DNA of 64,000 bases from Halichondria panicea. Taxonomy: Eukaryota > Porifera > Demospongiae > Suberitida > Halichondriidae. The notes under the pieces were generated by a model that saw only the letters and a list, made by a program, of their open reading frames with translations, did not search any database and was not told where the DNA came from. The DNA is taken from NCBI RefSeq assembly GCF_963675165.1, contig NC_087384.1, positions 1,758,501 to 1,822,500 of the forward strand. The letters run 5' to 3'. The position numbers and the translations under genes were made by a program. Every line of letters starts with the position of its first letter. Position 1 is the first letter of the stretch. Of the stretch, positions 27,459 to 63,048 are shown piece by piece.

Positions 27459-29764
27459 TTAGGCTTGTATCTGTTCAATAGTTTTGGTCAAATCGACAGA
27501 CTCAATTTTTCCAACCAGCTGCGTCCAATTGCCGTCTCCCTGCTCGTAGTACGAGTGTGAGGTGTAGGTGCTGCCTCCGATTATGCCTGTGTTGTGGAGG
27601 TTGTTGGCCGGGTTGGCAGGGTCAACGATACGGGGGAGCCTGGCTGGAAACAAGTCTGGGTAGTCCCCTGGTTTGTAGTAGTCAACCCAATAGATACTGT
27701 GTGCATGCATAGATTGGAAAATACCTTGTGAAAGAAACGTTTGACACTGAAATTCTGCATGTGTTGACTTTAGTCATTTGTCTAAGCAAAATAATGTGAT
27801 TATGTTAGTTTTCACAATTCGCTAACACATATAGTGCGTGTGGCTAGTTTTAGACTCAACGTACTCCGCTGTTAGGTGAGATTTCACTATCTGCTTCAAA
27901 GTGGCTGTTGTTCTGTAGAAACGGAAGCTAATAATTATTTGTACACAAGGGAGTTCCCCTACCGTTGCTCAATAGTTCCACCATAGTGCTGTTTCAATGC
28001 CAGCTCATAAGCTCTAAGCACCACAATTGAGATGAGATAACTCTTTGGCCTTCCAGTACATAGCTTCCCCTCAGGCCATTCTTTGTTCCTCCACGCCTTA
28101 GCACGGCGAATAAGTTCTTTAGCCTGTAGGATTTTAAGTATACAAATTGAAACGCATGCCCTAGCTACTGTATACATGTGTGTCAGATTCGTGACATTGT
28201 ACATGTGTATACTCACTTTATCATCCTGCTTTTCAATAAATGCAACCTGCCATTTTGAAGCATTCACTGAGAATCTAATGTGCATGGTATAGTGTTACAA
28301 CTCAACACTTGTTGTGTTGTTATTGTGTGTTTAGCTTACCGAAATAATTGGGCAGGTTTTGCTCCGTCTTGTTTGGCTTTCCTCAGGTAGTCATAGAGAT
28401 CTGCTGGATTCTCCCATTTTGGGCTGACCAAGACGTCAACGTCTATCGATAGCTCTCGATCTTGCTGGTCATATGTCTTGTATTTCAGTGACACAGACAT
28501 TTTTAGTGGTGTTTGAAGCATGACACTCCGTAGACCTCCCAAAAAGCTTCGCAGTTTGTGTAGAGGCGTACGATATCCTTCACTCAGGACAGTGTCTGGA
28601 TCCACACCTGTATAATTAAGTGTACTTGAGTCTCATTAATTAAAGTAAGCCCCCTTCCGCTATTTGAGGTTTCCTATAATTATGTATAGCGAGGTTTGTT
28701 ATGTAATGATTATGTGTAGAGTATCGACATTTTATCTCAGCATATGTATTTGCTGCACGAAAAATATTGTTTGTAGGGCAGCCAAGTGAGTAACTTACTC
28801 TCTGAGTAGACCACTAGGTCCACATCGAAGTTGCCTGGAATGGCTGTGTACTGACCAAGGGAGCCAGCCTTGAGCACCTGGACTCTGTTCAGGCCATGTC
28901 TATGATGCTAGTGAATATATGTGTTCATGCTAGTTACCATAATTATATACATGTAGTAAATGTGACACAGATATGTTCCCACCCTGGTCGTGGTGATTAG
29001 TACAAACATAGATTGAAGAGTTAGAGGGATAGGAAACGGTTTGTATCTCGAGTAACATCCGCGCTACGCTGCGGTTTAATCGAGGCCATCACAACAATAT
29101 CTATTTCTACACCCAGTGCATAATAAACTACAAGTAACTGTGCTTAGTCCGTGCAACTCACTTATATTTCTAGGTCTATACCTATTGTAGTAGTCATAAC
29201 CAGCACGCTTACACGTTACATGTTCCAATAGCTCTAAAACAGCCTTGGGAACATATAACTTTATTGGAAAGTCTCTTTTTACTGGGTGTGGTCAGTCATT
29301 AGCAAGTACTATACACGTGGCTCATGGACTATAGGGGTGTTATAAGTTGCTGAAAGAGATGATGTCTCGAGGAAACACAGCTTTGGGTACCCGGCAAAAA
29401 TGTGCTTAATAGCCTCGTTCATAGGGCGTAATGCGGATAATTTTCGTGGCTCCACTGCAGATTCAATGTAAAATCATCACGTGCACCACTCCGTTTCCTA
29501 TCCCTCTAACTCTTCAATCTATGGTACAAACTACCTCGATAAAATTGCTCTAGACAAAAATAACCACCTCTTATAGGCACAGTTTTACCACATAATACTA
29601 ATATGCTAAACCACAGGCAATTTGTGTGATTGGAATTAGCCACCACCTGGGCACATCAGTGGCACTGATATCGACTATCGATCCTGACTTACTTTTATTT
29701 CTCTTGCAAGCTCATCCACAACTCTCATAGCATCATCAAATGTGATGTCCTTGTTCCTTGCCAT
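27459..29764 (-). CDS. 2'-5'-oligoadenylate synthetase-like gene, array locus 1 (intact)
   Basis: Seven exons, 5' to 3': 29764-29693, 28907-28799, 28607-28340, 28274-28217, 28123-27963, 27912-27865, 27696-27459; 317 codons plus stop. Exon 2 carries the nucleotidyltransferase core, GSLGQYTAIPGNFDVDLVVY, with the Gly-Ser loop and the first two metal-binding Asp residues. Exon 3 supplies the third (IDVDVLVSP). Exon 5 is the helical segment AKELIRRAKAWRN, and exon 7 has the OAS signature DPANPANN. OAS enzymes polymerise ATP into 2'-5' oligoadenylate, classically when bound to double-stranded RNA, and the product activates RNase L in vertebrates; the sponge effector is not shown here. The start ATG at 29764 opens an exon 1 like those of neighbours. 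Intron 1 holds the 517-bp P-like MITE. Confidence 0.9.
29007..29523. mobile_element. P-like MITE with 7-bp target duplication, in intron 1 of OAS locus 1
   Basis: A 517-bp element. Ends CATAGATTGAAGAGTTAGAG and its mirror extend to about 35 bp (through ggataggaaacgg). The target duplication is GTACAAA (29000-29006, 29524-29530). The CATAGAT start, the GGAAACG motif and the 7-bp duplication match the large foldback element at 9182 and the MITE at 53426. Confidence 0.9.
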
Positions 29765-29984
29765 CTTCTCTCTCTTTTTCTTTTCACTGGTCAACTTCTA
29801 TATACCAGTCAGCTGTTATATAGGTTAGTCAATGGTTGTGGGTTTCCCCATTTTCCTACGAACAGTATTCATATTTGGCTAATATTAGAATGATTAATCA
29901 TGAGGATGACGTGCTAATTTTGTAGACAAGCCAAGAATAGTCACATGATGATGAAACCTACTTCATGTAATAATTATGCCTCGA

Positions 29985-30185
29985 GGCGTAGCCGCACGAG
30001 GGATACGGTAATGCTGACTGTGTGTGTGTGTGTCTGTGTGTCTGTTCCAGCTGTAACTGCTCAACGGTTGCAATGCGACAAAAACTAACAGCTTCTATAG
30101 GCTTCTAGCCACGTTCTCTTGGATTTTGATTCGTGGATTTGCAAACTAAAGCTTCTTTCTCGAGTTATGGCTAGTTTGACTCACA
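29985..30185 (+). repeat. Dispersed repeat, CCGCACGAGG family (second copy)
   Basis: Matches 2488-2660 in opposite orientation: gcctcgaggcgtagccgcac, acagcttctataggcttcta, ctttctcgagttatggctag. A (GT)n tract near 30015 differs between copies. Boundaries are approximate. Confidence 0.75.
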
Positions 30186-31330: not shown

Positions 31331-32756
31331 CTACACTAGACGCTGTAGCAGGTCCACTGAGTGTATGTTCTCTACCAGCTCAGACCACCCGTCGCCTCTC
31401 TGACCACGACTCTTGGCGACGCCCGTGTCATACAGATTATTGGCTGGGTTGGCCGGGTCAACGATACGCGGCAGTGAAGTTGGGAAGAGGTTGGGACCAG
31501 AGGGCATACCTCCACCCACGCTATAAAACTTCTCCCAGTAGATACTGTATGCAATGCAATCATACATGAGATAAATTAATACGTACCATATATTGCTGAC
31601 TTACTCTATGCCGTGGCGGTTAAGGAGGAGATTCTTCAGCTCATCCATTGTGCTATAGTGTGTATATACATATCATTTGTGTAGTTTAAAGTGTTTTTAG
31701 CTTACGCTTCGGCGATCCTCCTTGTGTTGGAAGTTCCCATTCTCTTTGTGGCCTTCTCGTAGGCGTTGAGTACGAGTAAAGAGATGAGGTAGGACTTGGG
31801 CTTGTTGGACAGCTTCCTTTCGGACCAGAGCTTGTTACGCCAAGCCTTTGCACGCTTGATAAGCTCCTTCACCTGTAGCTCAGTGTAATTGTCGATCATG
31901 CCTTAGGCTATACAGTACCTGGTTAGGTTGTTGCTCAAAGAACTCCACCTGCCATTTAGCTGCACACACAGAGTACCTGCACACGTACAGCAATATCTAA
32001 AAACTGCAGCCCCACCTTTGTATGCGTGGAATGGCCATGTATTTGCAATTGCAATGTAATTTGTCCGTTTAAATTACCTGCTATATATACTGTTAACTGT
32101 ACTCACTCGTATCTTTCTTCTTTTGGGACACCTCGGAGGAAGTCGTAAAAGTCGTGTTGGTTGTTCCAGTACGGACTAACCAGGAGGTCAACATCGATAA
32201 TGTCGTCAAACTTAAACTGGACGGAAAACTTGGTCCGTTTGGTTATCACGACTTTGGGCTGTCTTTCGAGAAACGTCTCCAGCTGATCTAGCCACTTACC
32301 AAATCCCTTGTACCGCATCGTATGCGTATCAACATCTGAATTGAAATTGTGTGTAGCTATAAGCGACACAAAACTTGCAACTCTTCACAAACTTGTCACA
32401 AGATATTTGCGACCAAAACGCAATGCTTATCATACCATAGCTAATTCAGGTAACTCTGTTTTGGCCTACCTGGTGAGTAAATGACCAGGTCGAGGTCAAA
32501 GTCCCCCGGGACGGCTGTTCCATGCCCTAGAGAGCCTGCTTTTACCACTTCACCGATGGCAATTGGTTGGTTATCCTTTGTACGTACATCATGTACAAAG
32601 AGTATTAATAGTAGGTCATACTATTTCCAAGTACTTGATACAACTTGTGGTTTAGGTTTAGTATGAATTTTATTATGTATTTACCTTGAGTAGCATAGCA
32701 ATCTCGTTAACTGCCTCTTTAGCTCTTCTGTGGTTTAAAATGTCCGGGTGAGCCAT
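31331..32756 (-). CDS. 2'-5'-oligoadenylate synthetase-like gene, array locus 2 (intact)
   Basis: Exons 32756-32685, 32575-32470, 32335-32107, 31976-31919, 31872-31706, 31652-31605, 31544-31331; 297 codons. Exon 2 reads VVKAGSLGHGTAVPGDFDLD, a canonical Gly-Ser loop and Asp-x-Asp. Exon 3 has IDVDLLVSP for the third Asp. Exon 5 contains VKELIKRAKAWRN and KSYLISLLVLNAYE. Exon 7 has WEKFYSV and RIVDPANPANNLYDTG. Intron phases 0-1-2-0-2-2 match every intact array member. It is the closest relative of the fragment at 44.3 kb, which looks like a partial copy of exons 3-4 of this gene. With its 5'-to-3' order compact (1.4 kb) and all catalytic residues kept, it should encode an active enzyme. Confidence 0.92.
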
Positions 32757-33294: not shown

Positions 33295-33760
33295 CGTTTG
33301 TTTCCCATTCAGACACGTCCCGTCGTTGCGGGTGGACACCTGATTTAAGAAGAGTATTTGATGTTAAATGTACGTACATTAAAGGTTTGATGTATAATTA
33401 TGATACTGTGAGTAAAGCAAAAATTATATGTATTCGTACAGTTGTGCAGTTATAACATTAGTCCATTAGTACTACAAATTGTAAACTGCTTAATGCCCTT
33501 TATTGCATGCATCGTCATTATTCCTTCGTGTCATGAGGCTTGGTGAGAATGCAACACATCATAATTCCCCTGGACTGCGGCCACTGATCCTCCGAGAATA
33601 ACCTCGGAAATATAATTATTATAGTTATTCCGATTCTGCTCTACTGAGATTGCCTTAAATGCTTCTTCGATAAAAATTAATTATGTTAATGTTACTGATT
33701 TTAGTATATACATGGATGCTCCACTTTTGCCGCCAAATAGTGCCATTTTGTTTGGATGTG
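33295..33760 (-). pseudogene. OAS remnant: exons 1-2 and the start of exon 3 of a locus-10-like gene
   Basis: Sequence 33538-33650 matches exon 2 of the intact gene at 48.8 kb (cttggtgagaatgcaac, cccctggactgcgg, cactgatcctccgagaa) but lacks two short stretches, including part of the catalytic loop. 33697-33755 matches its exon 1 (catgctccacttttgc-like), and 33300-33345 matches the exon-3 acceptor side. Exons 4-7 are absent. It is the dead counterpart of the 48.8-kb gene in the duplicated block that runs on into locus 4. Confidence 0.75.
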
Positions 33761-34019: not shown

Positions 34020-35868
34020 TCAAAAGTCAACAGTCAGATCTAAGTTATGGATCTCTCTGAGAAACAACTGCCATCTCTTGGGAAACGAATCTTTCTTCTG
34101 TGGCTCAATTTGACAGACCCCATGTTTGTAGAGGTTCTTGTAAGGGTTGGATGGGTCGATGATGCGTGGCTTCTCGGGTAGGTAGTGACCGTACTTCTCC
34201 ATAATCACAGGGTTCTCCCCGGGGACGTGAATGCTGTATTGATAGAGAGTAGTTGTGTGTCTGTATTAGGTTTTTGGTACTTCCTTTAATGGCTACTGCA
34301 TTGCAATGTTTTTGCGGCCTGACACGTGTTTAGGGTATGAAATGTTGTACAAATTCATGACTGTATATACCGTATATATGTATAGAGGGTATAATTATTT
34401 CGAGGGTATAAATGTTCGTGGTTTTCGCGGATTAAGCATGTACCGCGAACATTTATAACCCTGAATTTAATATCGCATGCATGCATGCTGCAAAAGGCTG
34501 CTATTCCACGAAAATGAACGCAAAAATTTATACCCTCGAAATATACCCGCTATACGGTACAGTATATACATACCATAATGTTGTACCACAATGTTTTACT
34601 GTACATAGTGGTAAAATAATGGTAAAGCAAATCACTCTAGGTCTTGATTTATAGCAATACTCTCGACCAGCTTCTTGATATCCTTGGTCATCCTATATAA
34701 GCGAGAGAAGCAAGTGGATGCAAACTTTTCCCAAATCAATAGCCCACCCACCATTTTGCCAGTTCTTCTAGTGATTCTGCCTGTGCTAACTCAGCAGGTG
34801 CATGTTCGTAGGATATCAGTACGAGCATAGACAGTAGGTAGGATTTAGGGCAGCCGTTTTTCTGCTTGTCCCATGTTCTGTTTCTCCATGCCTTGAATCT
34901 TTTTATAAGTGTTTTTACCTGTTAATAAATCATGTGACATACTGTAGATATCGTAAATATTTCGTACTTGTTGTGGTTGTGATTTTACTAGCATTGTCTG
35001 ATACTTGAACAGTCCACAGCAAAACCTGACTTTGTGTGTGCATAATTAGAGAGAGTAATATCATAGAACGATAAGAGACAAGAAGGTTACGCACAAATTC
35101 CTCCTCTTTGGATGCATTCCTTTGAGGTAGTCGTACAAATCCTCCAAGTTTTGTTTCTTCCATTGAGGACTGAGTTGTAAATCAATGTTCAGGTTAGAGG
35201 TCTCGAAACGCCAGCCGTGGTACAACCTCTCAATGTTCTTTATGTCAGTAATGGAGTGCCTTAGGCACTTGATTGTTCTGCCCAGTATGAATTTGTACTG
35301 TTCCTCAGATACCTCTTTCGTGCTCGGATGCAGACCTGTATAGTAAGATACCATAACGCATAAGATAACATAATTATGTATAATCATGTAAGTATTTTTA
35401 GTTTTTGAATTTGAGATTGAACATAATTATTATAATTTTTTTATATGCACAATAATTATGTTTCAGTCTGTGTGAGCCTTTGTAGGACTTGTAGGGTTAG
35501 CATGAATTTAGGCTAATGCACAACATGAATTAATATAGCTCATTTGCTCTCATGAACTGTAGTATAGTGTATGCATAGTGTGTTTGTACTTGGTGAATAG
35601 ATGCATAGATCAACATCAAAGTGTGCAGGCAGACTTGTCTCTTGCCCCAGGGACCCTCCAAGGTATACTTCAGATATGCTTATGCCCAGAGTAGACTCCT
35701 AGAGCAGAAAAACACAGTGCACATGGCATATCTAGAGTTCCAAATGAAGATCACCTTCTTTTTTAGTATGCTTCTAACCCTCTTCACAAATGCTGTGACA
35801 TCTTTGAGTGGAGTCCTCACTCTACTAGCTTTGCTCATGGGTACTGCCAGAGCCAGTGCCATTGTCAC
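34020..35868 (-). CDS. 2'-5'-oligoadenylate synthetase-like gene, array locus 4, divergent lineage (intact)
   Basis: Exons 35868-35755, 35698-35590, 35335-35095, 35025-34968, 34918-34752, 34692-34636, 34233-34020; 319 codons, with the array's common intron phases. It belongs to a divergent lineage. The loop reads YLGGSLGQETSLPAHFDVDL, the third Asp lies in NIDLQLSPQW, exon 4 has FCCGLFKYQ instead of FSVNASKWQ, and exon 7 begins VPGENPVIMEKY before RIIDPSNPYKNLYKHG. All three metal-binding Asp positions remain, so activity is plausible. Exon 1 is longer than elsewhere; an in-frame Met eleven codons in could be the true start. Intron 6 contains an ACCGTA MITE. A near-complete but broken copy lies at 49.4-51.85 kb. 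Confidence 0.88.
34369..34559. mobile_element. ACCGTA-type MITE in intron 6 of OAS locus 4
   Basis: About 190 bp. Ends accgtatatatgtatagagg and its mirror closing in acccgctatacggta, with inner cgagggtataaatgttcgtg mirrored by atttataccctcg. Non-coding. Confidence 0.75.
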
Positions 35869-36805: not shown

Positions 36806-39253
36806 TTAACGTGTGATCTCCTCCACACTCTTCTCAAGGTCAAAGTGTTTCACTTTGTCCACAAACTGGCTCCAGTCCCCATCCCCACGCTCGTAGTCAC
36901 ATGGCCTTTTCTTGGGTGGGTACGGCCCAATGCCAGACTGGTAGACATTGTTAGCTGGATTGGCCGGGTCGACCAGGCGTGGAGTGGACGAAGGAAAGAG
37001 GGTGGGGTAGTCTCTAGCGTTGTAGTAGTTCTCCCAGTAAATGCTGGAAAATTAGCATGCATGCAGACTCGGTTGTATACAGTTGTATATCATGCACATG
37101 CGTGTGCGCAGCAAAAACATGCACATGCACTCTGGGTTACTTACTTCATTGTCCTGTGGTTGCGGACAATTTCCTTCAGTTTTTGTGTTGTGCTGTGTGG
37201 AGTGTCAAATATTAACTTTTATTGCTTTTTAATAAGTGCTGACATCAGCGTTTTACATTCAAATTGCACAGGAAGCGACTCATCACTGACTGTGCAGATA
37301 TTTTTCCATATTGCACACCCGGAAGTATTATTGCACACTTGTTATTGCACACTAGGAAGTGATTCTTATTTGGAATAAAACGTTTTCAGCAGTGAGAGAA
37401 CAAGAAAAACATAGTTTACACACTTATAATTATGCATTGCAATGTTCATCAGTCTCTTTTCTTGTTTTCTGATGCTCTGTATCACTTCTGTGCTCTTTTT
37501 GCAGTGAAGCTGAGGGTCAGGAGGTTGTCAGTGTTCATATTTAACGCATCAAACAGGCATCAGTGTTGGAAGTGGGTGCTTTGAGCGGAGTATTGCACAT
37601 GTAGAAGTGTACTGCACCACCATATAAGCCTGTTCAGGCTTGTATAAAGTCGTTTTGGCTTCAAAAACGGTTGTCACACTTTTCTTCAGTTATAGCGGTG
37701 CATGTTTCCTCTTCTGATACACTGGAGCATGATAGAAAGCAAGCACATGCTTTTTATCCTTCAGAACTATCCATTTTCAAAACGGGTTGCTGGTTGTCAA
37801 CGTTTTTCTTGTCTTTTTTCTTGTCTGTTCTCTACAAAATCTTTAAGTAGCCTTCTGCAAGCTCTCTTGGTGTTCTAGAGTCTTATTTCTTTGTCTTTCT
37901 AGCTGTTTTCTTTCAACTTCAACTGGGAGAAATCAATTTTGTTGCTACGCATTCTTCTGGTTGATAAAGCAACCGCATGTTGCGCATGCGCAGATTCAAC
38001 CTGCATTTTGGTTGCCAAGCAATAAATGCATTATCCCATGGATACTGATGATTATCACTCGTCCGTGCCTAGTAACTGTCACTCGTGCCTTGCAGGCACT
38101 CGTGCAGTTACTGGCACAGACTCGTGATAATCTTCAGTATCCATAGGATAATATCATAGTATATATATTATTGTAATTTTACGTACCTTTTGGCAGTACC
38201 AGAGGAAGTCTTGTATGCGTGAAGTACCAGCAGAGTGAGCAAGTAGGAACTTGGTCGACCTCGGCCTCCCTTGCTCTTTTGCCATAGCTGGTTCCTCCAT
38301 GCTTTAGCTCGTATGATTAGCTGCTTCACCTTATGTTTGTTTGTGTGACAATCTATTAGGTATTTACTGAACGTAATGTGTTGGTGAACTCACAGATGAA
38401 TCTTGCTCCTTCATGAAAGCAACTTGCCACTTGGATGCATTCACACTGAACCTGCAGAAACCATACATGCAGTGATTTCGATTTACTCAAAGAGAGCATT
38501 CGTGCTTTCATTATATAGTCAGCATAAAGCATGCATGCATGTGAAGTAATGCGTGTAGCTTACTTATGCCTGGCTTCAGCATCGTTAGGCACCCTATCTC
38601 GTAGGAATTCAAAGAGCTCTCGTGGATGTTTGGGTTGTCCCCCCCACCAGACAGGGCTGACTAGGAGGTCCACATCGATGTAGCCCTCATATTGAAACTG
38701 AACAGCGTATCTAGTCAGATTGATGTTAGTGACGATTCCTGCCCTGAAGACTCTGCCATCTGTTATGAAAGCCCTTATTTTCTCTAAGTAGCTTTTGTAT
38801 CCGTTTCTGTTCACTGTATCTCTGTTCACATCTGCATGTTCAAATTGCATTCAGTAATTATTATTTATTAAATGATGTAAAGACAAGCATATAGCTAGTC
38901 CTGTATATATATACTCACCGCTAGAGTAGAGCACCAGGTCAATGTCGAAGTGTTCAGGCACAGCCGTCCCATGTCCCATAGAGCCAGCCTTAACAATCTC
39001 ATTCACTCTAATACTGGGGCTTTGTGTGTACTTTGAAAGGTTTGTCTGAATTGAAAATTCTATAGATAACTTGTGATATAATTATATATAGCTTTGTCAC
39101 AGTACTGAATAGCTAGTATATATATGTAGGGGTATTAATATTTATATAGGGTAGAGTTACAGTGGCGCATGGGTCGAGTACCTGTAATCTTAGGACTAGT
39201 TCTCCAATTGCTTTCTCAGCTTCAGTATGATTTGGGGCACGAGAGGCTGCCAT
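36806..39253 (-). CDS. 2'-5'-oligoadenylate synthetase-like gene, array locus 5 (intact)
   Basis: Exons 39253-39182, 39045-38919, 38831-38564, 38451-38394, 38329-38187, 37192-37145, 37043-36806; 317 codons. Exon 2 has VKAGSMGHGTAVPEHFDIDL, exon 3 YIDVDLLVSPVWWGG, exon 4 RFSVNASKWQVAFMKEQD, exon 5 VKQLIIRAKAWRNQLW, and exon 7 WENYYNARDYPTLF plus RLVDPANPANNVYQSG. The three catalytic Asp residues and Gly-Ser loop are intact. It is the living member of a subgroup whose other copies, at 56.8 and 61.5 kb, are broken. Intron 5 is unusually long (about 1 kb) because it contains the 37826-38150 repeat and its terminal hairpin. Confidence 0.92.
37826..38150 (+). repeat. Dispersed repeat ending in a ~113-bp hairpin, copy in OAS locus 5 intron
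   Basis: Recurs at 47101-47440 in the same orientation (tagccttctgcaagctctc, gcgcatgcgcaga, acctgcattttggttgc). The 3' part (38036-38148) is a near-perfect palindrome: atactgatgattatcactcg mirrored by cgtgataatcttcagtatcc around tgccttgcaggca. Confidence 0.85.
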
Positions 39254-39585: not shown

Positions 39586-40115
39586 CTATGTGAGGTTCAT
39601 CACAAGATTAAGTGTTTCTATTCTCTTTGCAAATATCTCCCATCGTTCTTTAATGTCCTTTCCCCCGCTCGGTTTTACTTCCCCGAGGCCTTGTCGGTAC
39701 AAGTTTGTGAATGGGTTGGCAGGATCGAGGAGGCATGGCCGGTCTGGGAGGATGTCACAGTACTTCTCCATTATTAAGGGGTTCTCCCCAGGGACTATAA
39801 GGCTGTGATATGTATGTAATAATTTTTATTATACGTAATATTTATGTATACTGAGAGTGAACTTACTCCAAGCTGGCGTCAGGTAAAATATCTTCTTTAA
39901 CTTCAGATCATTTGTCATCCTGTATATACGTGATAATTATGGTCAATAATTCATTTTTCTCTAGCCAGTCCAGACTGCTCACCATTCTGCCAATTCTAGT
40001 AGTTTTGCTTGTTCAACACAGACTCTGAGCCACTGTCGTATGAGATTACAACAAGGAATATAGATTTTGGGCGATGCACCACTTGGTGTACTCGCAAGTG
40101 GTTTTAATGCAATTT
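39586..40115 (-). pseudogene. OAS-like pseudogene, 3' half only (array locus 6)
   Basis: Exon 7 (39802-39586) is open and resembles the divergent lineage: VPGENPLIMEKY, LLDPANPFTNLYRQG. Exon 6 (39919-39867) is 53 bp instead of 57, which breaks the reading frame relative to exon 7. Only the 3' half of exon 5 is visible (ending at 39983, LLELAEW, with GASPKIYIPCCNLI in place of PKSYLLS). No exons 1-4 lie upstream before locus 7, so the enzyme core is gone. Sequence near 40625-40700 resembles that upstream of locus 14 (about 61080-61140), perhaps the old 5' flank. Confidence 0.8.
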
Positions 40116-40842: not shown

Positions 40843-42233
40843 TTAATATTCCACAGCTTTTGTGAGATCGATAGTGTCAATGTTAGTGACCAGCTGTGTC
40901 CAGTTCCCATTTATTCCAGTTTTATACACGTTGTTCGTAGGGTTTGCCGGATCGAGAATTCTTGGTTCTCTTTCACTTGGTATATATAGTCGTGGATAGA
41001 GAGTAGATACACTATAAGTGTAGTACCTCTTCCAGTGCATACTGTAGTTTATGTTATTGTGGTTATCAGTGTCAATCTTATATTCATCTGACTTACTTAA
41101 CAGTTGTGTGATCCCTAACAATCTTCTTTAGCTCAACTTTTGTCCTGCGTGCATGGTTGGGTAGATACACACAATTGTGTTATAAACTAAAATTCTGCTT
41201 TACTGAACTTACTCTCTAGCAATTAATGAGGTGCTTGATGTGCTGACACCACGCCCTCGTGCATTTTCGTATGCCTTCAATACGAGAAGAGAGATGAGAT
41301 AAGATGTTGGTTTTCCCACATTACTGTGTGACCATGTTTTGTTCCTCCAAGCCTTAGCACGCTTGATAAACTCTTTAGCCTGCATGCATGCATGTCATAC
41401 GGTTATGTGTATGTCTTAGAATAATTATTGTTTGCTTACCTGACTTGGAACCTCACTGAAAAATTGCACCTGCCACTTCGAGGCATTCACTGAGAAACTG
41501 AAACAGATTCATGTATGGCATTATGACATGCAGTGTATAGCTATATATTACTGTACTCACTCGAAAAGGTGTTCTCGGTCAACATCTTGGAGAAACGTCC
41601 AGAGTGCATCTAGATTTGGCCAGTTTGGGCTAACCAGCAGATCCACTTCAATTCCATAGTAGTAGAAATTCACTGCATGTGGTTTGGTTTTGCTGAGTGT
41701 CACCCCCGGCACACTGCCTAAGAAGATCCTCAGTTTGTCTAAATACTTCCCATAGCCCGTGTCTATACCTCCAGAAGTTGTGCGCTGTCTTTTTGCCCTG
41801 GTGTTTTTTATTTCTCTTGCATCTACATCTACAAAAATACGTGGGAAATGCATGCATGGGCCAGCTTTTAGCTAAATAATAATTTATTGTATACATATAT
41901 TTTATAATTGTTTTCCTATTAAACACTCTCAATGCCGGCTTATAAATACCTGAAGAGTAGATGACTAAGTCCAAGTCAAACTTTCCTGGAACTGCAGTGC
42001 CATGTCCCAGAGAGCCAGCCTTGATCACCTCATTCACAGTTAGGCCGATATCTCCATGCTATATACGTATATGATAGTAATATAAACATTTAAGCATGTT
42101 CACTTACAATTATACAGTTGAGTCATGCAGGTAGACTCATGTATAGATCTATTACCTGGAATTCAGTGACAAGTTTGTCTACTTTAACTTTTGCTTCCTC
42201 TATAGTGAGTACTTTAGTCACTTTATGAGCCAT
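40843..42233 (-). CDS. 2'-5'-oligoadenylate synthetase-like gene, array locus 7 (intact)
   Basis: Exons 42233-42156, 42058-41950, 41828-41561, 41497-41440, 41379-41213, 41144-41097, 41041-40843; 308 codons. Exon 2: VIKAGSLGHGTAVPGKFDLD. Exon 3 has a basic insert before the conserved GYGKYLDKLRIFL and gives the third Asp as IEVDLLVSPNW. Exon 4: FSVNASKWQVQFF. Exon 5: AKEFIKRAKAWRNKTW and TSYLISLLVLKAYE. Exon 7 is short, with RILDPANPTNNVYKTG. The start ATG at 42233 gives MAHKVTKVL, like the MAHP start of locus 2. Phases agree with the array pattern and all catalytic residues are kept. Confidence 0.92.
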
Positions 42234-44315: not shown

Positions 44316-44334
44316 CGTACCGTCCTGATTTGGT

Positions 44335-44745
44335 TGTTGCTCAAAGAATTTCACCTGCCATTTAGCAGCGCACACAGAGTATATTTGTACACGCACACAT
44401 TAGAGTTTAGACTATCGCAAATTATGGAGAGCGGCAGCCCCATCTTATAGTTACATTGATAGACCGTGCATTTTACAATTGTCAAATATTTAATTTCTCC
44501 TTTAAAAGTTACCTACAATACTGTACGTATATATACATTCAACTTATTCGTATCTTTCTTCTTTTGGGACACCTTGAGGAAGCCGTAAACATGGTTGTTC
44601 CAGTATACGGACTAACAAAGAGGTCAACGTCGATAATGTCGTCAAACTTAAATTGGACAGAAAACTTGGTCTGTTTGGTTATCGCGACTTTGGGCTGTCT
44701 TTCGAGAAACGTCTGTAGCTGATCTAGCCACTTACCAAATCCCTA
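44335..44745 (-). pseudogene. OAS-like fragment, exons 3 and 4 only (array locus 8)
   Basis: 44549-44743 is nearly identical to exon 3 of locus 2 (gtatctttcttcttttggga, gtcgataatgtcgtcaaact, ctttgggctgtctttcgaga). It has lost several bases near 44583-44600 and has substitutions such as a changed catalytic-strand neighbour. 44335-44385 matches exon 4. No exons 1, 2, 5, 6 or 7 surround it. It is a recent partial duplicate of locus 2 with a broken frame. Confidence 0.8.
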
Positions 44746-49145: not shown

Positions 49146-49435
49146 TTCGTTTGGTGTTGTGTTAGAACTATTATATAGGATGCTTTGTGCATAGATAGTC
49201 AGGACCATTACTCTTATAGTACTGATTATGGGTGTGTACGTTGCTCTAATGAAAATCATGCATGCATTGTGCACGTTACCTGAGAAATATGAATAACGTT
49301 GTCTGCAGTAAACAAAAAAGATAGAATAATCATTCATTCTTGGAACTTTTGTTTTATTGAGTCAGCAGGTCACCCTTAATCTTGTTCTTGTAAATGTTAT
49401 AAATGTACACAGGGTCCAAGAGAAAAATGATTAGA

Positions 49436-51850
49436 AGTCAACAGTTAGATGTATAATTATAAGATGGATCTTTCTGAGAAACAGCTGCCATCTCTTGGGA
49501 AACGAGTCTCTCTTTTGTGGCTCAATCTGACAGACGCCATGCATGTTTGTAGAGGTTCTTGTACGGGTTATAGACAGGTCAATGATCATGGCTTCTCGTG
49601 TACGTACCGGCTGTACTTATATCCATGGTTTTCCCCAGGGACGTGAATGCTGTATTGATAGAGCGTTGTAGCTATATTGTGTGTGTCTGTATACACAATT
49701 ATTTGGATGTAGATGTATATACAATTATGTGAGGATTTCGATCTCTAAACGTATCACTGAGTTTTTGGTGCTCCTTGCCTGTATAATGAAGGAATTAAGA
49801 AGTGCATATTAGCTACTTAGCTAATGCAATTGTAATCTTTGTTGTCTATAGCTAGTATACGTTATGTGTTTATTATGGTACATACACATTGTTGTACGTT
49901 TATAGCAATACTCTTCATCAGCTTCTTGATATCCTTGGTCATAATTCTATAAGCAATTAAGTGAAAAGAATTCTGCATGTCCATAGTATCAATAGCAGAC
50001 CATCCACCATTTTTCCAGTTCCTAATTTCCCTGATTCTGTGCGGGCTAACTCAACCGGTGCATATATATTGCACTGTATAATATTATACATAAGTAAATG
50101 CATTGGTAAAGCAACTCACTCTATATAAGTCTTGATTTTTAGCAATATTCTTCACCAGCTTCTTGATATCCCTTAAGAGAAAAACGTGCATGGAAAGTTT
50201 TCTAAATTAATAGCCCACCCACCATTTTGCCAGTTCTTCTAGTGATTCTGCCTGTGCTAACTCAACAGGTGCATGTTTGTAGGATATATCAGTGCGAGCA
50301 TATTATACAAAAGGTAGAATTTAGGGTAACCATTTTTCTGCTTGTCCCATGTTCTGTTTCTCCATGCCTTAAATCTTTTTATGAGCGTTTTCACCTGTAA
50401 ATAAATATCATATGACATGCTGTATATATACGAAGTAATAATTTCGTACTTGTTGTGGTCTTATACCTGAATAGTCCGCAGCAAAACCTGACTTCATGTG
50501 TGTATAGTAGAGGAAGTATAATATCATATACAACAATAGAAATAGGAGACGTGCACATTTTCCTGCTCTTTGATTGCATTCCTTTGAGATAGCTGTACAA
50601 ATCCTCTAAATTTTGTTTCTTTCATTAAAGACTGAGTCGTAAATCAATGTTCAGGTTAGAGGTTTCGAAACGCCAGCCGTGGTACAACCTCTCAATGTTC
50701 TGTATGTCTGTAATAGAGTGCCTTATAGGCACTTGATTGTTCTGCCTAGTAATATAAATTTGTACTGCATGCGTGCGCTCCTCAGATACCTCCTTCCTGC
50801 TCGGATGCAGACCTGTATAGAAAGATGCCAAAATGCATAAGATATAGAGCACTGCAGTGCTAACCCTCGGCTGATGACATAAATAATAAAGATCTATACC
50901 AACCAAAATAGTGTTGTACAATAAATGCTGGTTAAGCAGCAAATATTACAGGAGCTAGAGGCATGCTGAAACTTTTGAGAATAGAGTTTTAGTAGTGTAT
51001 CATACGCCGTACGAGACATTCATTGTGGACTAGGATCACATGCAGCAAAGTTAGGAAAAAAGCCTGGAGTTTTAGATATAATTATGGGGCTATAGTTATA
51101 ATGTTTTGAGGCTAAAAAAGCAACAAACCACAATTCTAGCTTTCTACTTAGGGACCCCAGACTTCCATTATTTCTAAGGATCCCTAGCTTCAGCTGAAAA
51201 TACGTACCTCGAATGTATAGTGTAGCTATAGCTAGCCAACTAATGAGCAAGTTAGATTTTGCTCACTTTTATTCGACAACGAACCACCTTTAAAACCAAT
51301 AACTTGTTATAATTATGTGAAGGCTATTCATGCACGCTGTAAACCCACCGCTATGGTATCCAGGTGAGCAGGCTCAGAAATTACAAACAGATAAACCAAC
51401 GAACTACTATACTCGCTGTGGCCGCAGTATGGGCTTGGGTAATAACAAAGTATATAGTACATGTACAATTATAGATTAACAATATTCTCAGTCTGTGTGT
51501 GAGCCTTTGTAGGGTTAGCATGGATATATACGCTAATGCACAACGTGATTATAGCATAAATGCTGCATTTGTTCTCAGTGTAGCTCGTACTTGGTGAATA
51601 TAGATGCATAGATCAACAAAATGTGCAGGCAGACTTGTCTCTTGCCCCAGGGACCCTCCAAGGTATACTTCAGATTTGCTTATGTCCAGAGTAGACTGCT
51701 AGAGCAGAAAAACAGTGCACTCTGTCTTTTCACAAATGCTGTTACATCTTTGATTGGAGCCCTCACTCTACTAGCTTTGCTCATAGGTGCTGTTTCTCAT
51801 ATAGGTACTGCCAGAGTCAGTGACATTGTCACATGGCCTTGTGTAGTGCA
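49436..51850 (-). pseudogene. OAS-like pseudogene, broken copy of locus 4 (array locus 11)
   Basis: All seven exons of locus 4 can be traced: exon 7 at 49436-49652 (several indels), exon 6 at about 49895-49947 and again at 50119-50170, exon 5 at 50220-50395 with a partial second copy near 50008-50060. Exons 4, 3, 2 and 1 follow near 50455-50495, 50560-50815, 51594-51697 and 51720-51845. In exon 3 the conserved SPQW is replaced by a Leu and then a stop, and an insertion precedes RHSITDIQNIERL. In exon 2 three bases are missing, so one Asp of the Asp-x-Asp pair is gone. The doubled exons 5-6 suggest a small internal tandem duplication. It cannot make a full enzyme. Confidence 0.85.
50845..51425. 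repeat. Repeat in intron 2 of OAS locus 11
   Basis: Shared with 54482-54835: gagcactgcagtgctaaccc, tagctagccaac, ttttgctcacttttat, ccaggtgagcaggctcagaa. The same intron of locus 4 is only about 250 bp and lacks it. It has no coding potential. Confidence 0.7.
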
Positions 51851-53954: not shown

Positions 53955-54072
53955 ATTATACAGTAGAGTGCCTTTATAGCCTAGAGTAAATATGTTCTCT
54001 CACTTGTTGGTGTAAATTTATTTACTTTGCATGCATATATACGTCGATAGAATGCATGCAATTATAACTTAC

Positions 54073-55199
54073 AACTTTCTTGTGCTTGGGTTCATCTTCA
54101 TATATTTGTACATATCCTCTAGATTTTCCCATTTTGGGCTCAGTGATAAATCCACTTGGAAGTGCCAACATTGGAAACGTCGACCATGGTTTCCACACAG
54201 TTCCTCAGGGTCCTTTATTTTGTAGTGATTAATTTTGTCAAGTGCCTTTGGAGACAGCGAATGATCTGTTCCATACCATCTTTATACGTCTGTTCTGTTA
54301 CTGTCTGCTTTATTGGATGTAGACCTATCATAATTATACAGTGTATAAGGACTAGAACTCTGAACTGTGAACGTATTCTGTATGCATTATTGCTCTGAGC
54401 ATACACTGCTCGTTATATTGAGTTATGTAATCTGCCACCTGTTGATAGCGCTAAAGTTAATTTACCAAGCTATTACATACAATCAGAGCACTGAAGTGCT
54501 AACCCTCGGCTGTTGACATGAATAAATAGATCTATAAAAACTATAGGAATGCATGGTTCAGTAATAAAGAAGCCACAAACTATTTTAATAGAGACTGCAT
54601 GGTAAAGGATCACTTCAGCTGCAAATATGTAGTTCTAGCTCGAATAAAGATCGCGTGTAGAGCTAGCCAACGTGTAATGCTTAGCTTTTGCTCACTTTTA
54701 TAAGCATTACCATCGAAATCTGCCACAATAACTTGTTGTGTGAGGGCTATCCATGCAGCGCTATGGCATCCAGATAAGCAGACTCAGAAATTACAAACAG
54801 ACAAACAAACCAAACGACTACTATACTCGTGGCCGCCTACGCGCGCCTCGGGGAATAATTATTTGAAGGTATAATATTTGTACGTAAGATGTTTCCTATA
54901 ACTGTCTATATAAGACTAATTACTTGGTGGGAATATAAACTCTCTTAAGACTTTATACTACTTACTTAGTGAGAAGACAGTAAGGTCTATGTCAAAATGC
55001 CCAGGTAATGCTGTACCATGAGCCACTGATCCTCCAACAACAACATCTGATATGTCAATGTCTATTTCTTTCTTCTTAGATGCCTGTGTGATGTCAATTA
55101 ATTTAGTAAGCCACTGATAACAGATTCCAGTTGGAAAGTTTGTTGACTTACTTTTATCAGTGTAGTTCTAACTTTGTTGCTTAACAGGAAGGTTTCCAT
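54073..55199 (-). pseudogene. OAS-like pseudogene, exons 1-3 only, divergent lineage (array locus 12)
   Basis: Exon 1 (55199-55152) encodes METFLLSNKVRTTLIK, and exon 2 (55083-54966) reads VGGSVAHGTALPGHFDIDLT with loop and Asp pair intact. Exon 3 (54324-54073) is 252 bp, where 3n+1 is needed. A frameshift near 54245 separates HPIKQTVTEQTYKDGMEQI from the downstream QVDLSLSPKWENLEDMY. No exons 4-7 follow; a MITE and unrelated sequence lie there instead. The ATG of exon 1 falls inside the end repeat of the transposon at 55184-56687, so the present start may be borrowed from it. Intron 2 carries the 54482-54835 repeat shared with locus 11. Confidence 0.8.
54482..54835. repeat. Repeat in intron 2 of OAS locus 12
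   Basis: Second copy of the 50845-51425 repeat, shorter by internal deletions, in the homologous intron. Confidence 0.7.
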
Positions 55200-56784: not shown

Positions 56785-57831
56785 TTAAGGTGTGATATTA
56801 TCCACACTCTTCTCGAGATCAAAGTATTTCACTTCAATCACGAATTCACTCCAGCCACGCTCGTTTTCACTTGACTCTTTGTTGGGTGGGTACGTACCAA
56901 TGCTAGACAGGTAGACATTGTTGGCTGGATTGGCCGGGTCGACCAGGCGTGGAGTGGACGAGGGAAAGAGGGTGGGTTACTAGTCTCTAGCTTTGTAGTA
57001 GTCTTCCCAATAGATGCTGCATGTGTATACAAATTATTTGAGATTAATTAAACTTACTCCATTCTGCTGTGATTCCGAACAATTTTTTTCAGCTCTTCAG
57101 TGGTACTGCATATGTTATTGATATTTAATTGGTTATTTTAATTTTACCTCTTAGCTTCATTGTGTCCACGATAGCCATAAGTTTTTGCTGGTTTTCATAG
57201 GCTCGAAGCACCAACAAGGAGATTAGAAAGGAACTAGGGCTTCTTCGTCCTATGCTACTTTTAGGCAATAGGCGATTCGCGATCCTCCATGCTTTAGCCC
57301 GGGCTATGTATTCTTTGACCTGCATGTATAATTATATATATACGCAGGATTATTGGTGAATTCACAGAAGCAGAATACAAAAGTTAACACAAGCACAATT
57401 ATGTATACGGAAATTTGTTTTAGCTATATATATACGTATATAATTATTATACCTTCTGATTTTGCTTTTTCATGAACTCCACTTGCCATTTGGAAGCGTT
57501 CACACTAAATCTGTGCATGCAATTCAGGTAATCGCTATTGTATACTTTATCACAACTAACCTGTGCATGACTTCCAGGTCGTGGTTTGGCACTCTATATC
57601 TCGAAGGAACCGAAAAAATGTTGTCGGATCACTTGGATTATCACTCCACCAAACTGGACTGATCAGGAGATCCACGTCGATGTAGCCCTTGTACTTAAAC
57701 TGCACAGCATATCTTGGTTTGTAATTGGGATCTATATAAATGGTATCTGTTCCAAACACCTGTCGATTATTGCTTCCAGCTGTCTCATGTATTGCTGATA
57801 TCCGTCAGTTTGATAATATCTTCGCTTACAT
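56785..57831 (-). pseudogene. OAS-like pseudogene, exons 3-7 (array locus 13)
   Basis: A relative of locus 5. Exon 3 (57831 to about 57560) keeps YIDVDLLISPVWW but has a one-base loss before it and a two-base gain after it. Exon 4 (57453-57512, FSVNASKWQVEFMKKQ) is open. Exon 5 (57319-57148) lacks seven bases present in locus 15 and so leaves the wrong phase. Exon 6 (57105-57058) looks normal. Exon 7 starts WEDYYKARD and then meets a stop. Exons 1-2 are absent; the space upstream holds two MITEs. Confidence 0.85.
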
Positions 57832-58095
57832 CTGCGTGTGTATAATTATATATAATTTGTTATCGGACACCTATATATGTACCGTACTCTACCGAGATAT
57901 GCCCACGTTGGTATACATATATATATACAGCGTTGCTTTTATATACAGTAACTCTATAGCTATGAGTATAGTGGGTAATTTTGTCATCAAAATGCTCGTT
58001 CGTACAGCTCAGAATGGTGGCGCATTAATAATTTTTGCTGTGTTAATTTTAGAATGATGTTCTAATTTCCACCATACGAATAACATATAATTATC

Positions 58096-58765: not shown

Positions 58766-60884
58766 CTATATGTCCACAGTAAGGTCGATGGTCTCAATCT
58801 TCCTCTTTATCTCAGACCAGTTCCCCTCCCCATCATCATGTGACCTGTCACCGGTACGTGTAGTGGTAAACCCGGTGTCAAACAGGTTGTTGGTAGGGTT
58901 GGCTGGGTCCAGGAGGCGAGGGGTTTTTGGGGTGTCATGTAGGATTATGTTATCAGTTGCTCCCACAATGTAGTAGTCGTCCCAATGAATACTGTAGATC
59001 AATGTGTGTATACTTGTGTTTTGTGTAACATGCAGATATACTCATACGGTATTGCATGATTATATACTTCTACAATGTATAGACTGACTTACTCTTGTTT
59101 ATCTTCCCTAAGAACGAGGTCTTTAAGCTCATATGAGGTCCTATAGCATGGAATAAATATAATTATGGTATGCGTGAATATAGATGTAACGGTACCATGA
59201 TGTGATAACTGTATATACGTACCTTTCAGCCATATCACGAAAGATTAGATTTCCAAATTTCTCCTTTGCACGCTGATAAGCTTTTAAAACGAGCAAAGAA
59301 AGAAAGTAAGACTTTGGCTTCTTCTGTCCTGGGTAAACGTTTGGCCATTGTTTGTTCCTCCATGCCTTAGCACGCTGAATAAGCACTTTGACCTATACCA
59401 TCGTGGTATATACATGAACAATGTATATAGATGAACTGCAATGTATACGTATCCCTTACCTCATTGTCTTGCTTCTGCATAAACTGCACCTGCCATTTGG
59501 AGGCTCCTATTGAGAACCTGCGTGTAATTGGCATGCATGCATGCTTTGTTTCTATACACATGACATGTACGATAGTACAGTGCCTGTAACCTAGAATACC
59601 ACAAATGTGTGAGTAGTTGTACTTAAGTGTATCTTGAGATTGGAAGATTTCTAAGAAATGATGCTGATACCATTGTGTAGGTGAATGAATAAGCTACAAA
59701 CATATTCAGTGGAAAATCATTTAGGTGAAAACGGGATGATTGTAAAAAATGTATGTAACATCAATTATCTATGGAAGTAAAGTGTTTCTGGAAAAATTGC
59801 TTCTACCAAAAGATAGACAATTTATTAACAATACATGTGTAAAAACCTTAGACCTTAGCCGAAAACTTTACTTGAAATCTCTCCCTAAGCGAAAAGGCAC
59901 CCAAAAACACACATAATGGAGTATGAAACAGCGTGTGTACTTATGTAAACGATTTTAATCTATGCATAATTATGTTAGCTCAACTATCCACTGATGTTTT
60001 TCCAGAGTTCCAGACCTTAGCCGACAACCGTTAGTGTTTTTCCTCCCTAAGCTTTTGCTCACTATAACAATTTGTTGCTGTTGTAAAAGCAACCATGCAC
60101 ATACCCACCACTTTAGATTGCCATGGAGTTGAAGCTCAAGCATTCACCTACACTTTGGTATCATCAAAATTTCTTATAAAATTAATGTTTTAATGTCAAG
60201 ATATGTACCAAAATTCACGAATGTGTGGTATTCTACTCTCTAGGTTACAGGCACTGTATAGTGTGCATGCAGTCCTGTTCTTGAATTTTAACTCACGAGT
60301 AGCGCTTTTGAACCGGGATCTTGTCCAAGAACAGGCTCAGCTGGGAGACGCTGTCCCACCAAGGGGTCACCAGCATGTCCACGTCAATGAGGTCCTTGTA
60401 CCGAAACTGGACAGAGTGAGGTGTCCTATTCTTAAATTGCACATCGCTGTTTTTTTTCAAGAATTTCTCAAGTTTCTCTAGCCAGTGGCCATAGCCTTGC
60501 TCAAGAACTTTGTGTGGATCTAGGTCTGTCAAAAATTTGAGGAGTTAGCTGCCTACGAAATCCTCATGTAGACTATATAGACTAAAAATGTTCTTACTAT
60601 TATTCTGTGTTTAGCAGGTGCCCACCTCTTGAGTAGATGACCATGTCCAGATCAAAGTCTCCAGGAACTGCAGTTCCTTGTCCCAGAGAGCCAGCTCTGA
60701 TGACTTCACTGATAGTAATTGGCTGTTGGTCCTGTCATGTAAAGCAGATAATAGTGAATTTTGCACATTACCTGTTGCTCTATAGTACTTTTAGGAGGGT
60801 AGCCAACTCATCTGTTGCTTCTCTAGCAGCCTTGTGAGTGAGTAGCTCATTGCTGTGGGGAGGGTGGCAATTCCTAAAGTCCAT
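58766..60884 (-). CDS. 2'-5'-oligoadenylate synthetase-like gene, array locus 14 (intact)
   Basis: Exons 60884-60789, 60731-60626, 60525-60297, 59517-59460, 59392-59223, 59140-59093, 58991-58766; 310 codons, with phases as in the rest of the array. Exon 2: VIRAGSLGQGTAVPGDFDLD. Exon 3: HSVQFRYKDLIDVDMLVTPW, with the third Asp. Exon 4: FSIGASKWQVQFMQKQDNE. Exon 5: VKVLIQRAKAWRNKQW and KSYFLSLLVLKAYQ. Exon 7: WDDYYIV and RLLDPANPTNNLFDTG. Exon 1 is longer than usual; the ATG at 60884 gives MDFRNC, and the following EATDELATLLK aligns with exon 1 of locus 2. Intron 3 is about 0.8 kb of unique sequence. Confidence 0.92.
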
Positions 60885-61467
60885 TTGTTATGTTCTTATT
60901 TCTATCTCTAATTGGGTGTATGTGTGTGTTTGTTTTCTTTTGTAGTAAACTAAAGTACTGTTTACAGATTAGTCAGCAAAGGGCAAAGGGACTGTCCCAG
61001 GGAAAGTCCATTATAGGCTCATTAATTGATGCTCCCAACAGCTGCACCCACGTCTTGCACCATCATCATGCTTAGAGCTGATTCCCATGAAAAAGTCCCT
61101 TAAGAATATTCATTGTTTTGAGAAAAGTAATAATCCATCAATGAATAAAGGATAAGGCTATATTCCTACTAAATTTGTCAGTTGTTAATTTTCTAGAATT
61201 AAGACAATGCTTGCACTGCTAATGAGTATACCCGACTGAATTGCCTCAGGGTATAGGTGAATATAATTATAGTAAAAGGTCAGCAAACGAATTTAACAAT
61301 CAACTAATACGTTTAACAATCAAATAATACTTTAAGCATCGTGCAGCTATCAGCGAAACAAGTTACTATAATAATACACTACTACACTATAATATTGTGT
61401 GCTGCATGCTATATAGTCTTAATTGTCTGTTTAAGTTACTAAAGTTAGTCAGCTCTCTTAAACGGTC

Positions 61468-63048
61468 TTAACGTGTGATCTCCTCCACACTCTTCTCAAG
61501 GTCAAAGTATTCCACTTTGTCCACAAACTGACTCCAGTCCTGCTCGTTTTCACTTGGCCTTTTGTTGGGTGGGTACGTACCAATGCCAGACAGGTAGACA
61601 TTGTTAGCTGGATTGGTCGGGTCGACCAGGCGTGGAGTGGACGAGGGAAAGAGGGTGGGGTAGTCTCTATATAGCTTTGTAGTAGTCTTCCCAATAGATG
61701 CTGCATGTGTATACAAATACTATATAATTATAATAATAGTTAATTAAACATACTCCATTCTGCTGTGATTCCGAACAAGTTTCTTCAACTCTTCAGTGAT
61801 ACTGCATAATTATAAGTTTAATGAAATAATACATGCATGGTGATTAATTTTACCTTCTAGCTTCATTGTGTCCACGGTAGCCATAAGTTTGGCTCGACTG
61901 CTGGTTTTCATAGGCTCGAAGCACCAACAAGGATATTAGAAAGGAACTAGGGCTTCTTCGTCCTACTCTACTTTTAGGCAATAGGCGATTCCTCCATGCT
62001 TTAGCCCGGACTATGTACACCTTGACCTATAAAATATCATACACGCAAGATTCTGATGACTCAAACAGAACGCATGGAGTTCCTGCAGTGTACGATATAA
62101 GCGTTATAAAATTATAGGCATGCATGCAACACAAAGCATGGCATGCACATTAAAAATTAAAAATTCATTGTTATGTAATAGTACCTTCTGATCTTTTTTT
62201 CTAAACTCCACTTGCCACTTGGAAGCGTTCATGCACACTAAATCTGTGCATGACTTCCAGGTTGTGTCTTGGCACACTATCTCGAAGGAACCGAAAAAAC
62301 ATTGTCGGATCGTTTGGATAATCACTCCACCAAACTGGACTGATCAAGAGATCCACGTCGATGTAGCTCTTGTACTTGAACTGCACAGCATATCTTGTTA
62401 TGTTGGGCTCTGTAATGACCCCTGCTCCAAACACCTATCGATTGCTAATGAAAGCTTCTAGCCGTCGTATGTGTTGGTCATATCCATCAGTTATGATAGT
62501 ATCTCCGCTCACATCTGCATAACATGCATGTGTTATTCATGCACTTAAGCCACAACTATAATATATATGGGTGCGTGCATAGTGTATGCTTTTGATGATC
62601 ATGTCTATAATTATATATAGTTTCGCCTCAAATTTTTTAAGCTAGATTTATAGGTGTATAGGGATTCCAGGTGCCCCTCTGAGTTAGCACTTCAACGTCG
62701 CATGTGATATAGGCCCAGTGAATGGGCAGGTGTTGCATACTCTATATACAGCTACATGTACATGCATGCATGCATGCACGCAGGTTTGCTTGCCGTGAGA
62801 GTAGAGCACCAGGTCGATGTCAAAGCTTCCAGGTACAATTGTTCCATGTCCCATAGAGCCAGCTTTTACGATCTCGCTCACTCTAATTTTTGGATGAGTA
62901 TAGCTTGACAAATTAAGCTGCATTTTGAACATATTATATAATTATACAGATTTCTGCATGCATATCTCATTATTACCTGTAGAGTAGACACCAACTCCCT
63001 AATGGCTGCTTCAGCCTCAGCATGTGTAGGTTTCCTAAAGTAGGCCAT
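61468..63048 (-). pseudogene. OAS-like pseudogene, seven exons with several breaks (array locus 15)
   Basis: A relative of locus 5. Exon 1 (63048-62977, MAYFRKPTHAEAEAAIRELV) and exon 2 (VKAGSMGHGTIVPGSFDIDL) are intact, but exon 2 ends at GCAAGC, a GC-type donor where locus 5 has GTGAGT. Exon 3 (about 62515-62258) keeps YIDVDLLISPVWW but has an in-frame TAG before VFGAG. Exon 4 has a four-base insertion after FSV. Exon 5 (62026-61854) and exon 6 (61801-61754) look sound. Exon 7 has a four-base TATA insertion after WEDYYKA that brings in a stop; the rest of the exon stays open in the shifted frame to 61468, so decay looks recent. Confidence 0.88.

Follow-up and report, generated by a model that had tools for sequence, protein, structure and literature searches.

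The window, i.e., the whole analysed stretch of 64,000 nucleotides (C8:1758501-1822500) in the genome of the sponge Halichondria panicea (131,455,214 bases in 39 contigs), carries at positions 27459-63048 an array of genes resembling oligoadenylate synthetases (OAS). The OAS-like tblastn matches in this interval lie on the minus strand without exception. Gene models were obtained by splicing four genes by hand and by running, for each locus, a protein-to-genome aligner tolerant of introns, frameshifts and stops.

Seven genes (A, B, C, D, F, I and N) are intact: each has a complete frame with GT-AG introns, seven exons and intron phases 0-1-2-0-2-2. The initial annotation had proposed seven intact genes with this very architecture on one strand, and both the tblastn matches and the splice models agree with it. 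Gene A (27459-29764, 317 codons, each standing for one amino acid of the protein) was spliced from exons 29764-29693, 28907-28799, 28607-28340, 28274-28217, 28123-27963, 27912-27865 and 27696-27459; its exon 1 was chosen, by likeness to the first exons of the other genes, among open ATG...GT stretches that had been listed mechanically. Genes C (34020-35862, 317 codons, GGS subgroup), D (36806-39253, 317 codons, with an intron 5 of 994 bases), I (47658-49208, 325 codons counted from the first ATG) and N (58766-60884, 310 codons) also rest on splice models, while B (31331-32756, 297 codons) and F (40843-42233, 308 codons) were placed by tblastn and splice models together. The predicted range of 297-319 codons thus holds apart from I, which extends it to 297-325; the difference could come from the choice of ATG for I alone.

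By our models, seven further loci in the window (E, G, H, J, L, M and O) are broken, all again on the minus strand. Locus E (39592-39801, by tblastn) retains the last exon alone. Exon matches define the B-like locus G (44325-44742, exons 3 and 4) and locus H (45124-46616), for which pieces resembling exons 2, 5 and 7 were taken together as one locus. The other four were recovered as splice models: J (49434-51826), a C-like pseudogene with 10 frameshifts and 3 stops that includes exons 1-2 at 51591-51826; L (54072-55184), reduced to exons 1-3 and intact in another block (see below); M (56791-57997), a D/O-like pseudogene with 5 frameshifts; and O (61471-63048), whose type has six exons because exons 3 and 4 are joined into one, carrying 2 frameshifts and 1 stop in the window and intact in two other blocks. 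A lone relic matching exon 2 lies between B and C (33555-33611). Eight broken loci had been counted initially; the eighth may correspond to J exons 1-2 or to one of the pieces grouped here as H.

The array runs on past position 63048. A fragment at C8:1826059-1826376 is followed, less than 10 kb to the right of the window, by an intact eighth gene of type P (320 amino acids, minus strand, splice model at C8:1829100-1831900, or L001:6600-9400). Taken at its smallest, the finding is that eight intact genes are packed into about 46 kb of gap-free sequence, formed by the window and its right neighbour.

Family identity and active site

A profile of the seven intact window proteins, searched against the PDB, matched OAS2 at 9.1e-34, OAS1 at 1.8e-22 to 1.3e-21, OASL at 8.8e-15 and OAS3 at 6.6e-9. 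OAS proteins make up the top seven of the ten matches with E up to 10; no cGAS chain is found among these ten, so the profile is not that of a cGAS-like receptor (cGLR/Mab21). Within the array, the protein of gene B finds locus F at 1.7e-38 (tblastn), and together with the OAS2 match this excludes chance likeness. The still lower genome-wide E-values, 1e-47 to 1e-57, contain the exons of the query itself and are not counted as proof.

Single-domain profiles point the same way. With E up to 1, Pfam OAS1_C matched six of the seven proteins, most strongly at 3.8e-14, and left one member without a match; protein A reaches 31.4 bits against a cut-off of 19.9. NTP_transf_2 and SMODS each matched six of seven at the same E-value limit. 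Searched against the whole genome, the OAS1_C profile gave no match, probably because introns split the domain; as it gave none in 14 control genomes either, this search was set aside. The membership in the OAS family that had been proposed for these genes is supported by the profile searches.

For residue comparison we aligned ten types of the gene (A, B, C, D, F, I, L, N, O and P), three of which (L, O and P) are intact only outside the window. The Gly-Ser loop and the DxD motif are kept in all ten. The third carboxylate is Asp in nine types and Glu in P, where all eight intact copies have the Glu. At this third site the register of both MAFFT and HMMER falls two residues off the OAS1 Asp, and the conserved Asp of the I-D-V-D-L strand was taken as its counterpart. 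In the seven window genes, the Gly-Ser loop and the three Asp positions are kept throughout the alignment, just as first described.

Other positions follow the vertebrate enzymes less uniformly. The OAS1 Lys213 position holds Lys in all ten types. The positions of pig T187 and T190, in the acceptor pocket, are changed in nine of ten, L retaining both; at the acceptor-pocket position Q193, I has K and L has H. K204 is represented by Lys or Arg in five types. Neither Lys nor Arg occurs in any of the ten types at the positions of K66 (His in five) and R195, two contacts with double-stranded RNA (dsRNA) in vertebrate OAS1. The description of these genes as nucleic-acid-sensing is thus unsupported as it was worded. 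Sponge OAS are reported to be independent of dsRNA, to make both 2-5A and 3-5A and to be changed at the acceptor-pocket residues T187 and T190 (PMC6307210); the K66/R195 pattern of the ten types agrees with that dsRNA independence. The placement in an early-branching animal made by the initial annotation is plausible from the compact introns, the genome size of 131 Mb, the ankyrin-ZU5-Death genes discussed below and the sponge-like changes in the acceptor pocket.

A cluster of inverted blocks

The array is one block of a cluster of about 0.94 Mb that comprises nine blocks in two inverted arms. The left arm occupies C8:1.62-1.83 Mb on the minus strand and the right arm C8:2.07-2.56 Mb on the plus strand. 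Genome-wide exon matches number at least 154 with B as query, 134 with I, 137 with D, 147 with N, 136 with A and 126 with P, each figure a lower bound; among the matches listed, all fall either within C8 1.621-2.558 Mb or within a small set on C5, at 3.144-3.154 Mb.

Of 63 loci modelled, 35 are intact: four of type A, five B, three C, five D, two F, one I, one L, four N, two O and eight P. A strict rule gives 34, to which we added the L copy of block 3 (L3), whose exon 1 was located separately. The remaining 28 modelled loci have frameshifts or stops or are incomplete. They include F6, which is free of frameshifts and stops and has no recognised first exon; L4, frameshifted on inspection; and C7, whose last exon is interrupted. 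Outside the modelled loci, 32 further exon places constitute relics in 19 groups. A large local expansion had been suggested from the window, and it extends far beyond it.

The blocks are collinear, with gene order A to P, and differ in which genes are missing or broken; block 5 has an extra copy of N. A type that is intact in one block may be broken in another, as is the case of L and O, broken in the window and intact elsewhere. Type P opens each array and is intact in eight of its ten loci, the other two being partial, while type I has one intact copy among four modelled. With 35 of 63 loci intact and individual types preserved or lost block by block, the birth-and-death pattern initially proposed is supported.

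Type O has lost the third intron, of phase 2, between exons 3 and 4, which leaves phases 0-1-0-2-2 (e.g., at C8:2327000-2328501); the other intact types keep it. The second, small OAS group (C5:3143981-3154421, minus strand) consists of one intact A-like gene, one broken F-like gene and one C-like fragment. Its A-like gene stands at a synonymous divergence (dS) of about 0.25 from the intact C8 copies.

Age, exchange and selection

The ten types are 24-65% identical to one another, i.e., 35-76% of residues differ. In a tree of 36 rows (30 distinct), the types form old branches, and copies cluster by type, that is, by position, and not by block; support for the deep forks of this tree is weak, and the branch of pig OAS1 is very long. 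The C8 blocks differ in 0.4-5% of aligned bases, gaps excluded. A single recent expansion is ruled out, since the types differ in 35-76% of their residues and same-type copies on C8 in a few per cent.

The closest partner of the window block shifts along its length. In its A-B part the identity is 99.2% with block 8 and 99.0% with block 7. With block 4 it reaches 99.7% over the stretch that runs from F through E into D, and 97.5% over the C-B stretch. Such shifts are the trace expected of repeated block duplication together with exchange between copies.

Pooled ratios of nonsynonymous to synonymous differences (pN/pS) among intact copies are 0.29 for A, 0.10 for B, 0.43 for C, 0.18 for D, 0.23 for N and 0.18 for P; F gives 0.29 on two differences. 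These substitutions indicate mainly purifying selection within types, and the pooled values give no sign of pervasive positive selection there. The coding models are real and, for the most part, conserved.

Kinase-KEN genes between the arms

We examined seven 10 kb pieces of the region between the two OAS arms. One of these pieces contains genes of another kind, which belong to a tandem array of three complete and two apparently broken copies at C8:1960650-1978250 (L047, L048 and L044). The complete copies are single open frames of 736, 675 and 682 codons, with leucine-rich repeats (LRR), a transmembrane segment, a protein kinase and then a Ribonuc_2-5A (KEN) domain in this order (Pfam). In mammals, an RNase domain of the KEN type is turned on by way of OAS enzymes. 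In two of the three, Pkinase matched at 1e-41 and 5.9e-39 and Ribonuc_2-5A at 3.1e-12 and 5.2e-18, both above cut-off. Hydropathy gives each complete copy an N-terminal, signal-like segment and one internal segment. The R-x4-H signature, given as the catalytic motif in PMC3710099, is kept in all three; the residue after Arg is Asn in two copies and Asp in one.

A genome-wide search for KEN matched seven places (8 of 8 candidates scored), four at C8:1960.8-1976.5 kb and three on C3, the latter looking like exons of one split gene, probably IRE1. The same search found nothing in 14 control genomes, which makes that control uninformative. A protein search (63 of 303 candidates scored) added the fifth, apparently broken copy at C8:1963.6-1965.5 kb; among the matches listed, it otherwise returned two weak ones to the kinase region, on C12 and C2. 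Apart from the C3 gene, the central array holds the sole KEN matches found in the genome.

The kinase-KEN part of a central gene (residues 277-670) aligns along its length with IRE1 at 1.1e-43 in a PDB search. The lumenal sensor domain of IRE1 was not recognised, and the N-terminus matches LRR families instead (Pfam). With RNase L the central genes share the order of kinase and KEN RNase; no RNase L chain is present among the 60 best PDB matches, and LRR and a transmembrane segment take the place of its N-terminal ankyrin repeats. The KEN fusions given in the table row of PMC3710099 are with kinase, ankyrin, CCCH, UBI and BRCT, and LRR is not among them. In the literature searched we found no LRR-TM-kinase-KEN protein, which is no proof of its absence from print.

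The nearest OAS gene lies 94-129 kb from the KEN genes, with other genes between, including the phospholipase C and guanylate-binding protein fragments given below. The probability that one array lands within these 0.94 Mb by chance is about 0.7% (0.94/131.5), a figure that belongs to a hypothesis framed post hoc. A linked 2-5A-type system of OAS and KEN RNases is possible. A more specific version would be a physically linked system of ancestral type, in which OAS oligonucleotides, or an extracellular LRR ligand, would activate KEN RNases at the cell surface or on endomembranes, in a pathway outside the RNase L lineage and perhaps with ankyrin-ZU5-Death proteins as co-receptors; we regard it as an unlikely, speculative extension. 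If true, it would place a 2-5A/RNase pathway in animals from whose group RNase L is said to be missing.

Other genes in and around the cluster

The 3' part of an ankyrin-ZU5-Death gene is located at 5051-8407 of the window, on the plus strand and thus opposite to the OAS genes. In Pfam, Ank scored 22.5 bits, above its cut-off, and ZU5 (17.6) and Death (19.8) each fell just below theirs; searched against the PDB, the ZU5 and Death open reading frames gave nothing convincing. Ankyrin exons upstream of this part were found in piece L039. A further ankyrin-ZU5-Death stretch lies at window positions 15-529 (plus strand), and many related stretches are found on C14.

The ankyrin-ZU5-Death genes were duplicated together with the OAS blocks. 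A search with the window gene gave at least 47 matches (40 of 125 candidates scored). Those at 75-100% identity adjoin OAS blocks of both arms, with the orientation mirrored from one arm to the other; others occur elsewhere on C8 and on C3, C14, C16, C17 and C22. A 5 kb stretch with ankyrin exons to the right of the window has at least 167 matches, which fall between the blocks at many places.

At their inner ends the arms bear inverted copies (91-98% identical) of a large open frame, at L040:7595-9883 (plus strand) and L046:5665-7878 (minus strand). Its start looks P-loop-like by eye, and the L040 copy has a weak COR-A match; downstream of it in L046 there is a Death-like domain (20.1 bits, cut-off 22.6). 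The centre also includes pieces of a guanylate-binding protein (L042:3140-3664, 1.6e-23) and of a phospholipase C (L043:1739-2395, PI-PLC-X at 1.1e-10). Finally, two open frames at 24801-25573 of the window (minus strand) resemble by eye the last part of a LINE reverse transcriptase, and Pfam gave no match to them at E up to 0.1.

Interpretation and alternatives

We conclude with high confidence that these are genuine genes of OAS-family nucleotidyltransferases and that the array forms one block of a cluster built by segmental duplication. Ten old paralogue types stand in the collinear order A to P, and whole blocks were copied, repeatedly and recently, in two inverted arms, leaving each block with its own mix of intact and broken genes. 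The blocks exchange sequence with one another, and among the types that have several intact copies, most are under purifying selection.

The intact genes would encode enzymes that polymerise ATP, and perhaps other nucleotides, into 2',5'- and 3',5'-linked oligonucleotides. By analogy with the published sponge OAS, the predicted enzymes would need no dsRNA in the vertebrate manner. The types have diverged in the acceptor pocket and hence probably also in product or trigger. With so many copies, the cluster probably supplies both dosage and diversity of a second messenger for defence or stress.

Several observations weigh against parts of this interpretation. The pooled pN/pS of intact O copies is 1.10, on five differences. 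When broken copies are included, the pooled values are 0.22 for A, 0.44 for I and 0.38 for O, and as this range overlaps with that of the intact copies, a low pN/pS alone does not prove that each copy is used. Among the modelled loci, every one of the E, G, H, J and M kinds is broken. Type P, judging by the Glu at its third metal position in every intact copy, may not be a normal enzyme, its pooled pN/pS of 0.18 notwithstanding. In the pieces checked, undetermined bases are confined to a gap of 200 bases (C8:2560384-2560583) and a long run of N from 2561315; the gap comes 3 kb past the last P copy, so that the right end of the cluster is unseen.

The cluster could be a mostly neutral tandem repeat, in which unequal exchange multiplies the blocks and gene number has no selected role. 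This would accommodate the 28 broken or incomplete loci of 63, the 32 relic exon places, the evident exchange between blocks and the survival of a single I among four modelled. The pN/pS values well under 1 in most types, and the state of type P, intact in eight of ten loci and partial in the other two, weigh against it, and we consider a neutral origin unlikely.

Copy number was taken from one assembly, in which the fetched blocks and the window have no N. It could be inflated, by uncollapsed haplotypes or by several individuals merged on one scaffold, and the true cluster would then be smaller, e.g., one arm. The two arms do show a similar series of blocks outward from the centre (window/4, 3/5, 2/7); B7 and B8, like D2 and D7, have zero coding differences; the window ankyrin-ZU5-Death stretch is about 100% identical to a copy at 2523530-2525234; and the right arm stops at the 200-N gap. 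However, nine blocks of differing content cannot be two alleles, and the window block is nearest to block 8 in A-B and to block 4 from F into D. Moreover, apart from a dispersed repeat some 310 bases long, the 7 kb left flank has no second copy among the 40 of 3919 candidates that were scored, the centre holds other genes, its seven 10 kb pieces are free of N, and the window with the adjoining 9.9 kb is gap-free. The block-by-block likeness of the arms leaves some chance of partial inflation by alternative haplotypes, which we consider quite improbable. A simple haplotype misjoin, as an account of the inverted arms, is kept as a rival and is not favoured, given the partner shifts, the unduplicated left flank and the N-free centre pieces.

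That the proteins belong to another CD-NTase branch, such as CBASS-type cyclases or cGAS-like receptors, is very improbable: NCBIfam CBASS_cyclase_a matches six of seven members (1.4e-18), the PADLOC cyclase model PDLC00808 all seven and E. coli CdnC the profile (6.2e-6), and Ser occupies the OAS1 Gln229 position in all ten types, but the seven best PDB matches are all OAS with no cGAS among the ten, member A scores 67 bits against the curated equivalog cut-off of 200 and passes that of OAS1_C, and pattern-based scans, limited in reach, confirmed no prokaryotic or viral relative. A bacterial or viral origin was rejected likewise, as those scans of prokaryotic genomes and viral contigs yielded no confirmed relative.

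Comparison with known systems

With vertebrate OAS1, OAS2 and OAS3, the sponge proteins share a profile match over nearly the whole protein, as well as the Gly-Ser loop, the DxD motif, the third carboxylate and K213. They differ in being single units of about 300 residues with seven exons, in the Ser that replaces Gln229 in every type, in the residues at K66 and R195, which are neither Lys nor Arg, and in the acceptor-pocket Thr, changed in nine of ten types. Expressed OAS genes and pseudogenes were reportedly described together in a sponge, Geodia barretti, in 2011. The acceptor-pocket residues are likewise changed in the OAS of the sponges Geodia, Tedania, Amphimedon and Lubomirskia (PMC6307210).

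OAS genes number 1-12 per species in the animal repertoires given in the same review (PMC6307210); here, one genome has 35 intact genes among 63 modelled loci. By intact genes the sponge cluster is about three times larger than that of rodents, and it differs from the latter in its repeated inverted blocks with a linked ankyrin-ZU5-Death gene. The rodent OAS genes are arranged in tandem. Their cluster reached twelve members by duplication and divergence, according to PMC6307210. The family is thus a known one; what is new relative to the literature consulted is the scale, the block structure, the P type and the neighbouring KEN receptors.

The cluster amounts to a natural series of enzymes for mapping trigger and product specificity. 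With KEN-RNase receptors located between its arms, the target of sponge 2',5'-oligonucleotides becomes a directly testable question.

A parallel is offered by the cGLRs, of which there are over 200 in some bivalves and 42 in Stylophora (PMC9980059). Both cases are large invertebrate radiations of an enzyme making nucleotide second messengers, on the cGAS-like branch in corals and bivalves and on the OAS branch here. With about 35 intact genes of ten old types, the sponge cluster suggests a capacity of the OAS branch for radiations like those of the cGAS-like branch in those animals.

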